Shown: piece after piece, positions 27,116 to 51,347 of the stretch
How the letters are laid out: each line of letters begins with the position of its first letter
Position numbering within the stretch: position 1 is the first letter of the stretch
From: Haloferax marinum
GTDB taxonomy: Archaea > Halobacteriota > Halobacteria > Halobacteriales > Haloferacaceae
NCBI RefSeq assembly: GCF_009674625.1
Contig: NZ_WKJQ01000001.1
Location: 124,001 to 188,000, forward strand
DNA: 64,000 nucleotides
Reading direction: 5' to 3'
The notes under the pieces: generated by a model
Databases searched by the model: none
Told to the model about the DNA's origin: nothing
The model's input: only the letters and a program-made list of their open reading frames with translations
Made by a program: the position numbers and the translations under genes

Positions 27116-27189
27116 GGGCCGGTAGCTCAGTTAGGCAGAGCGTCTGACTCTTAATCAGACGGTCGCGTGTTCAAATCGCGTCCGGCCCA
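27116..27189 (+). tRNA. tRNA-Lys (CTT anticodon)
   Basis: The 74-nt cloverleaf has acceptor GGGCCGG/CCGGCCC, a D-arm GCTC...GAGC, anticodon stem TCTGA/TCAGA with loop CTCTTAA (anticodon CTT), and T-loop TTCAAAT. The discriminator is A, and no CCA is encoded. No intron is seen. A second copy of the T-arm-to-acceptor end lies 134 bp downstream. Confidence 0.95.
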
Positions 27190-27203
27190 CTACCTTCCTT
27201 CCC
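27169..27203. repeat. 35-bp direct repeat, copy 1 (3' end of tRNA-Lys)
   Basis: This covers the T-loop, the T-stem 3' side, the acceptor 3' strand and 14 bp of downstream flank. It matches 27303-27337 at 34 of 35 positions (mismatch A27192 versus T27326). Because the match continues beyond the tRNA, it is a true duplication and not shared tRNA consensus. Confidence 0.9.
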
Positions 27204-27252
27204 AAGATTACTCGGTCAGTGACGAGTGCTCCACTCGTTTGTGCTACGACTG

Positions 27253-27337
27253 CGCGATTTGAACTAGGGAGCGGAGCGAACGTCGTGAGCGGAGAGAGTG
27301 GAGTTCAAATCGCGTCCGGCCCACTTCCTTCCTTCCC
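27253..27337. repeat. tRNA-Lys 3'-end duplicate within an inverted-repeat hairpin
   Basis: CGCGATTTGAACT (27253-27265) is the exact reverse complement of AGTTCAAATCGCG (27302-27314), giving a 13-bp stem around a 36-nt loop. The 3' arm is the start of the duplicated tRNA end (27303-27337). The loop contains GCGAACGTCGTGAGCG (27276-27291), which recurs with one change near the tRNA-Leu duplicate. Confidence 0.85.
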
Positions 27338-27441
27338 GAACCTACTCGACGACCCGTGGGTCTCTTCGTCTCAGGTACGTGGTGAGCGAGTAGCCCCGCA
27401 TCGCCGGACGACTTATCCCCACTCACAGAGAGCGATACACC

Positions 27442-51142: not shown

Positions 51143-51225
51143 GCGCGGGTAGCCAAGTGGCCAAAGGCGCAGCGCTTAGGACGCTGTGGTGTAGACCTTC
51201 GCAGGTTCGAACCCTGTCCCGCGCA
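51143..51225 (+). tRNA. tRNA-Leu (TAG anticodon)
   Basis: The 83-nt class II tRNA has acceptor GCGCGGG/CCCGCGC with discriminator A. The anticodon stem is CAGCG(C)/CGCTG around CTTAGGA (anticodon TAG). A long variable arm (GGTGTAGACCTTC) and a T-arm with GGTTCGAACC complete it. No intron or encoded CCA is present. A copy of the T-arm-to-acceptor end lies 124 bp downstream. Confidence 0.95.
51204..51223. repeat. 20-bp direct repeat, copy 1 (3' end of tRNA-Leu)
   Basis: GGTTCGAACCCTGTCCCGCG, the T-loop to acceptor of the tRNA, recurs identically at 51328-51347. Confidence 0.9.
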
Positions 51226-51284
51226 TTTTCTGTCCGAACGGACGCGAACGTAGTGAGCGACAGTGAGGGCGAAAATCGCAACAA

Positions 51285-51347
51285 AGGGTTCCGAACCCTA
51301 CGAGACGAGCAACGCGAGTCTCGGTCCGGTTCGAACCCTGTCCCGCG
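51285..51347. repeat. tRNA-Leu 3'-end duplicate within an inverted-repeat hairpin
   Basis: AGGGTTCCGAACC (51285-51297) pairs with GGTTCGAACCCT (51328-51339) as a 12-bp stem with one bulged C. Inside it, CGAGAC (51301-51306) pairs with GTCTCG (51318-51323). The 3' arm is the start of the duplicated tRNA-Leu end. The core GCGAACGTAGTGAGCG lies upstream at 51244-51259. Confidence 0.85.

Follow-up and report, generated by a model that had tools for sequence, protein, structure and literature searches.

Hairpin units with local copies of tRNA 3' ends downstream of tRNA genes in Haloferax marinum and other Halobacteria

Two units in the window

The window, a stretch of 64,000 nucleotides of Haloferax marinum DNA, contains a tRNA-Lys and a tRNA-Leu gene, each of which is followed on the same strand by a small unit that ends in a second copy of the 3' end of that tRNA. 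Reading away from the tRNA, a unit comprises a trailer hairpin (H1), a short stretch, an inverted T-arm, a core hairpin and the direct copy, here termed S2; the corresponding part of the tRNA gene itself is termed S0. The features are as follows (window positions):

27116..27190, + strand: tRNA-Lys (anticodon CTT), the second anchor gene
27191..27252, + strand: H1 trailer hairpin region of the tRNA-Lys unit
27253..27265, + strand: inverted T-arm of tRNA-Lys, 13/13 complementary to the copy
27266..27301, + strand: core hairpin of the tRNA-Lys unit
27302..27348, + strand: S2 copy of the tRNA-Lys 3' end, with likeness extending into the trailer (46 nt, 89%)
51143..51225, + strand: tRNA-Leu (anticodon TAG), the anchor gene
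51204..51225, + strand: S0 of tRNA-Leu (T-loop, 3' strand of the T-stem and 3' strand of the acceptor, about tRNA positions 52-73)
51226..51279, + strand: H1 trailer hairpin of the tRNA-Leu unit
51280..51284, + strand: AACAA, probable unpaired centre of the inverted strand of the tRNA-Leu unit, judged from pairing
51285..51297, + strand: inverted T-arm AGGGTTCcGAACC of the tRNA-Leu unit
51298..51327, + strand: core hairpin of the tRNA-Leu unit, with a CGAGAC...GTCTCG stem
51328..51347, + strand: S2, direct copy of the tRNA-Leu 3' end, 20/20

An earlier note on this DNA had described 20 identical bp of the tRNA-Leu 3' end recurring at an offset of 124 bp, and this is exact: GGTTCGAACCCTGTCCCGCG, at 51204-51223, is found again at 51328-51347. 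The inverted complement and the inner 6-bp stem that it reported are likewise both present in the predicted fold, in which AGGGTTCcGAACC pairs with the copy over 12 bp with one bulged C and CGAGAC pairs with GTCTCG. Since the plan at tRNA-Lys matches that at tRNA-Leu, the layout indeed applies to both tRNA genes of the window (2/2). The fold energies are unremarkable (z = -1.26 for DNA, -2.18 and -1.33 for two RNA precursors), and the evidence for the units is therefore sequence identity and not fold stability. Because T-arm loops are nearly palindromic, the inverted arm of tRNA-Leu taken alone is ambiguous (GGTTCGAACC); it is unambiguous where the tRNA has a TTCAAAT loop, as for Lys. The far end of the tRNA-Leu H1, GCGAAAATCGC, is, apart from one bulge, the complement of GCGCATTTTC, which joins the tRNA terminus and the trailer (own score 18 versus a control mean of 12.9, rank 3 of 38); the tRNA-Lys H1 failed this trailer complementarity test, ranking at the bottom of its controls (39/39). 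Downstream of tRNA-Leu lies a gene whose protein is 94-99% identical over its full length in 11 Haloferax genomes.

Occurrence in the genome and the class

Searching with RF00005 gave 52 tRNA matches in the H. marinum genome. The last 22 bases of the tRNA were matched at 18/22 or better within 600 bp downstream for 23 of these 52 and upstream for 4, with tandem tRNA genes making up all 4 upstream cases and 4 of the 23 downstream ones. After removal of the four first members of tandem pairs, a near-exact repeat of the own 3' end follows within 600 bp at 19 of the remaining 48 tRNAs, compared to 0 of 240 dinucleotide-shuffled regions. More than half (29/48) lack a near-exact copy, so the units are not universal. 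In G007, a genome from another family of the same order, downstream copies are present at 21 of 42 tRNAs by a looser score and none upstream, with arrays of five copies in a row at tRNA 706002 and four at tRNA 313672. The longest array that we met (G007:C1:703900-706700) has at least five tail copies and alternating repeated middles.

As a signature of the units we used the pattern GATTYGAA-N16-46-TTCRAATC, i.e., inverted T-loop, spacer and T-loop. It occurs at 20 sites in the H. marinum genome, and the reversed pattern at 0. One site lies within a tRNA gene, 16 are at most 300 bp downstream of a listed tRNA, and the remaining 3 (546417, 977283 and 2302984) are, by reading, at other tRNA or attachment loci. 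The first of these follows an apparent intron-bearing tRNA, possibly tRNA-Trp, that ARAGORN did not call and that, by reading, occupies the region 546200-546650 together with the unit behind it. The signature is present in 188 of 194 Halobacteria genomes, at 0 to 24 sites per genome of the class. In a phylum-wide draw, 21 of 22 genomes of the class contained it versus 7 of 97 outside the class (one or two sites each), where the reversed-pattern control matched 1 of the 97.

In a set of 31 copies at 24 tRNAs, which leaves out tandem tRNA pairs, 21 have their first base at -21 to -23 and their last between -6 and +23, counted from the tRNA end. The other 10 are shorter, starting at -12 to -16, and consist of the acceptor part without the T-arm. 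Many units of this genome are decayed. At two tRNAs that have the same tail, 100788 and 1281151, a hairpin splits the downstream copies between the T-arm and the acceptor strand.

Local arms, shared middles and turnover

The claim of the earlier note that each unit carries the sequence of its own tRNA proved correct at unrelated loci of this genome, in a second genome and across species. The cross-species set for tRNA-Leu(UAG) consists of 31 of 80 loci, the other 49 having no tRNA-Leu(UAG) in the flank examined. A copy of at least 18/22 is present at 25 of the 31, and 22 of these copies are closest to their own tRNA, with 1 tie and 2 nearer to another type. For tRNA-Arg(UCG), among 30 loci of the family, a copy matching at 17/22 or better is present at 7, in most cases with the local letters, and absent at 23.

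For the inverted arm, Watson-Crick matches to the local copy at positions 62-65 were counted in 25 scored rows out of 38, which include two tRNAs (1362520 and 3034920) where two overlapping tail matches share one arm. The counts are 17, 14, 11 and 13 of 25, values that were reached by 14, 64, 36 and 50 of 2000 shuffles, respectively; the arm thus follows the local copy at 62-65, and does not do so at 66-69. Among 93 arms, positions 54-63 are solidly paired (69-89 of 93), 64 and 65 poorly so (34 and 39 of 93), with the caveat that these are the arms, out of 113 units, that match at 8/12 or better, a choice that favours pairing. The far end of H1, compared with the complement of its own tRNA terminus plus trailer, outscores about 95% of the swapped controls in 13 of 40 units and all of them in 7; the other 27 of the 40 stay below the 95% mark. 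Together, the arm and H1 matches suggest that the inverted strand covers the tail except for its middle, of which the direct copy is mostly kept.

The further claim that the two elements are not copies of one mobile sequence fared less well, as the middles of units (trailer hairpin and core) can be alike between different tRNAs and close relatives differ by the exact presence or absence of a unit, a behaviour to be expected of small elements. Among the matches listed, the best alignments of the DNA downstream of different tRNAs reach 88% over 119 bp, 83% over 114 bp, 95% over 42 bp and 88% over 56 bp, with tail likenesses of 18/22, 17/22, 16/22 and 12/22, respectively, and many further ones lie at 64-80%. 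An H1 of type A is found at 9 of the sampled loci, always behind a tail that ends as in tRNA-Leu(UAG); since it is confined to one kind of tail, unit lineages may be tRNA-specific. The core motif AGCGAACGNAGTGAGCGA, with one mismatch allowed, has 10 sites in the genome, 2 of them away from tRNAs: the site at 2140081 overlaps a coding frame at the end of the latter, and about 160 bp further on is that at 2139920. Given these two sites, the core motif is not exclusive to tRNAs. A genome-wide, REP-like repeat was considered and rejected.

At the tRNA-Lys locus, the unit is present in 4 of 15 genomes of the genus, and the other 11 show no second copy. In three genome pairs, the sequence that follows S2 in the filled allele can be aligned, from its first base on, to that directly behind the tRNA in the empty allele (G155/G040, 137/150 identical; G112/G189, 117/150; G294/G078, 124/152). 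The tRNA-Lys copy extends into the trailer in G294 as well as in the window. Well-supported branches of the locus tree force at least 3 changes. One of the 11 genomes without a second copy (G295) seems to retain a piece of the unit, from which it follows that some loss occurs; both gain and loss of units may take place. At tRNA-Leu, ten Haloferax genomes have subsets of units in, by reading, an apparently single order. Haloferax sulfurifontis has four copies, the last of them degraded (16/20). Haloferax elongans has unit A between tRNA-Leu and the type-B trailer hairpin, and H. larsenii has unit B alone, i.e., these two species differ by one unit that adjoins the tRNA.

Two other origins were discarded. 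One is a chimaeric tRNA, in which S0 would have been delivered by an element and S2 would be the original 3' end. Two or three tRNAs looked so, but the odd T-stem letters of Arg UCG and Leu CAA are also found in relatives without an intact copy. The other is tandem duplication as the main source of units: neighbouring units in an array often differ, by reading, in their middles. At tRNA 706002 of G007, two repeated middles alternate.

The H. marinum genome also contains a 34.8-kb integrated element (2267917-2302773), which extends from tRNA-Pro (CGG) to a second tail copy at 2302754 and has at its far end a 341-aa frame with both tyrosine-integrase domains (PF00589, E = 8.3e-9). The tail segment common to both of its ends is the same as that copied in units starting at -21 to -23. 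Two units lie beyond its far end, and signature site 2302984 is beyond the far attachment repeat; no inverted T-arm was seen, by reading, at the element ends. Behind tRNA-Gln, a stretch of about 2.1 kb between two near-identical units (977283-979519) holds an integrase gene fragment that encodes the N-terminal part and continues into the tail copy; signature site 977283 belongs to the second of these units. We rejected the idea that units are virus attachment sites: a 321-bp query of one unit had no match in 50,697 phage records, and in 14 plasmid records only its tRNA-gene part (about 1-81) was matched. A search with two core patterns gave one viral contig, where the unit is behind a tRNA-Glu gene.

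Possible origins and known systems

In the explanation that we prefer, with a probability of roughly 0.37, the units are gene-less mini-elements that recombine at tRNA 3' ends via a predicted fold-back site and a putative tyrosine recombinase. A free unit would consist of one tail copy, H1, the inverted arm and the core. When closed, its inverted strand would pair with T-arm positions 54-63 (arm 1) and with about 69-73 plus the trailer (arm 2), leaving about 64-68 poorly paired as a short centre between the arms, so that a single strand, by folding, would mimic the tRNA target as duplex DNA. A tyrosine-recombinase core site is likewise built of two arms that flank a short unpaired centre. The putative recombinase would insert or remove the unit at the tRNA 3' end; insertion would leave the tRNA whole, with the displaced 3' end becoming S2, and each later unit would come to lie directly beside the tRNA. 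For recombination in the centre, unit and target would have to be identical there, and this may be the reason that the copy retains its acceptor part, for which the unit offers no pairing partner.

Closed units were folded in silico as single-stranded DNA, using tail copies of at least 16/20 with 40-200 bp between them. In 45 of 113 units the own tail folds better than any of 12 swapped ones, where 8.7 units were expected (although the units are related and not independent), and in 68 it does not; in a smaller set it beats all 15 swaps in 30 of 65. Pairing is raised over swapped controls at 54-63 (0.82-0.95 versus 0.61-0.80) and at 69-73 (0.67-0.74 versus 0.56-0.62) and lowered at 66-68 (0.51-0.54 versus 0.58-0.60), with 64 also below the controls and 65 about equal. 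We favour fold-back recombination because it would explain the local arms, the kept acceptor copy, the stacking and the clean empty sites, and because the integrated 34.8-kb element of this genome, which has a tyrosine integrase, is bounded by the copied tail segment. Several points argue against it. The 10 of 31 short copies do not fit a two-arm site, the clean empty sites could also come from homologous deletion between the 20-bp repeats, middles common to different tRNAs are unexplained by tRNA-specific recombination alone, and there is little sign of units on mobile DNA. The ends of the 34.8-kb element, where by reading no inverted T-arm was seen, also speak against it, as do the 27 of 40 units in the H1 comparison and the 68 of 113 in the folding comparison that did not stand out from their controls.

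Template-driven copying or gene conversion, as suggested in the earlier note, is retained as a less likely alternative. The units might instead be products of replication snap-back, for which no dedicated enzyme is needed: the growing strand would fold at a stable mini-hairpin, copy the tail backwards, refold and copy forwards, and the same route would correct imperfect palindromes. The succession of S0 plus trailer, inverted trailer plus T-arm, and S2 is just such a forward-inverted-forward series, both copies would automatically be local, and the core tips read as very stable small hairpins, a class to which GNA-loop DNA hairpins belong. We nevertheless find this origin doubtful, as local errors are not expected to give alike middles at different tRNAs or an H1 type restricted to one kind of tail across genera, and in most units the complement of 64-68 is absent from the inverted copy. 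Selection on an RNA tail, with the pre-tRNA being read through the unit, hairpins acting in 3' processing, termination or quality control, and gene conversion keeping the copies identical, would account for the complementarity of the arms. It would fit the class-wide signature, the downstream position of the copies (upstream ones are tandem tRNAs only) and the core tips that, by reading and among the matches listed, stay self-complementary despite sequence change. A function of this kind is unlikely given that 29 of 48 tRNAs are without a near-exact copy, that 23 of 30 tRNA-Arg loci of the family have none at 17/22, that presence flips between close relatives and that many units are decayed. 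T-arm stem mismatches at 54-64 show no bias on the sense strand between G-T and A-C (30 versus 28); at position 65, G-T is in excess over A-C (28 versus 6).

Two further explanations invoke insertion by other means. In cut-and-fill insertion with a long target duplication, by a Cas1-type integrase as in casposase activity or CRISPR adaptation, the newest unit would be the one beside the tRNA. The duplicated tail of filled alleles, the automatically local copy and the consistent order of units from the tRNA (by reading) agree with this, but such insertion gives no local inverted arm and the copies reach variably into the trailer, making it decidedly unlikely. We consider it very improbable that the units are relics of integrated viruses or plasmids that lost their inside and left their attachment repeats. 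While the copy does equal the attachment segment of a real integrated element here, the units are small and their hairpin middles conserved, the one unit query has no match in phage records, and the ends of the 34.8-kb element lack, by reading, an inverted T-arm.

Taking fold-back recombination a step further, the units could be a class-wide archaeal counterpart of integron arrays, in which a folded strand mimics a tRNA tail and recombines with it, with tRNA-specific lineages at dozens of essential genes; this extension is tentative and doubtful. If it were true, a whole archaeal class would carry arrays of gene-less elements of ~100 bp that dock by imitating tRNA tails, and dozens of essential genes would be docking sites for some of the smallest mobile DNA known. 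Single-strand site-specific recombination would then extend beyond integrons and filamentous phages, and the units would clearly exemplify DNA whose sequence is bound to follow that of a host gene. If snap-back were responsible instead, tRNA tails would be a natural laboratory for templated mutation. In either case, prophage-finding programs that take repeats of tRNA tails for element boundaries could be misled by such copies. We found no description of tRNA-tail hairpin units in the open-access literature, judged by titles and abstract openings.

The units can be set beside several known systems. REP and BIME sequences are palindromic hairpin modules repeated in a genome, whereas the units are bound to tRNA tails (16 of 20 signature sites are within 300 bp downstream of a tRNA). 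CTXphi-type integration, like the proposed mechanism, folds one strand into an attachment site; its folded single-strand attP uses the host dif site, unlike the units, which would use tRNA genes and involve no phage. In integron arrays, attC sites recombine as folded single strands (PMC2727003, PMC6393395). Integron cassettes, like our units, stand serially behind a fixed site, and attC sites are variable hairpins with paired arms around an unpaired centre, a plan that the units are predicted to have when folded. The units differ from integron arrays in that their arms copy a tRNA gene, they measure about 50-200 bp and they occupy many loci. No gene was found inside the units read, where inserts of 40-200 bp were scored and gene-bearing ones would escape, and no integrase was noticed beside the units of the window among the ORFs listed around tRNA-Leu. 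The small mobile repeats (SMRs), MITEs and PATEs of Haloquadratum are likewise short, gene-less and haloarchaeal, and PATEs have palindromes; in the accessible part of PMC3119063, none of them is tied to tRNA genes and no target duplication is given for SMRs and PATEs. The inverted part of the units, in contrast to MITEs, matches the local tRNA.

Elements of archaea that integrate at tRNA genes by means of tyrosine recombinases are already known (PMC8371274). They share with the units the target and the duplicated 3' tail, as also seen for the 34.8-kb element. Of the traits that characterize tRNA-targeting elements, a distal direct repeat of the tRNA 3' end is found at the 19 of 48 tRNAs (21 of 42 in G007, looser score), and an exact empty site in relatives is seen at tRNA-Lys in three comparisons. 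What sets the units apart is that they are gene-less, hairpin-only and stacked, with an inverted copy of the T-arm. The units seem to work like tRNA-targeting and integron-like recombination.
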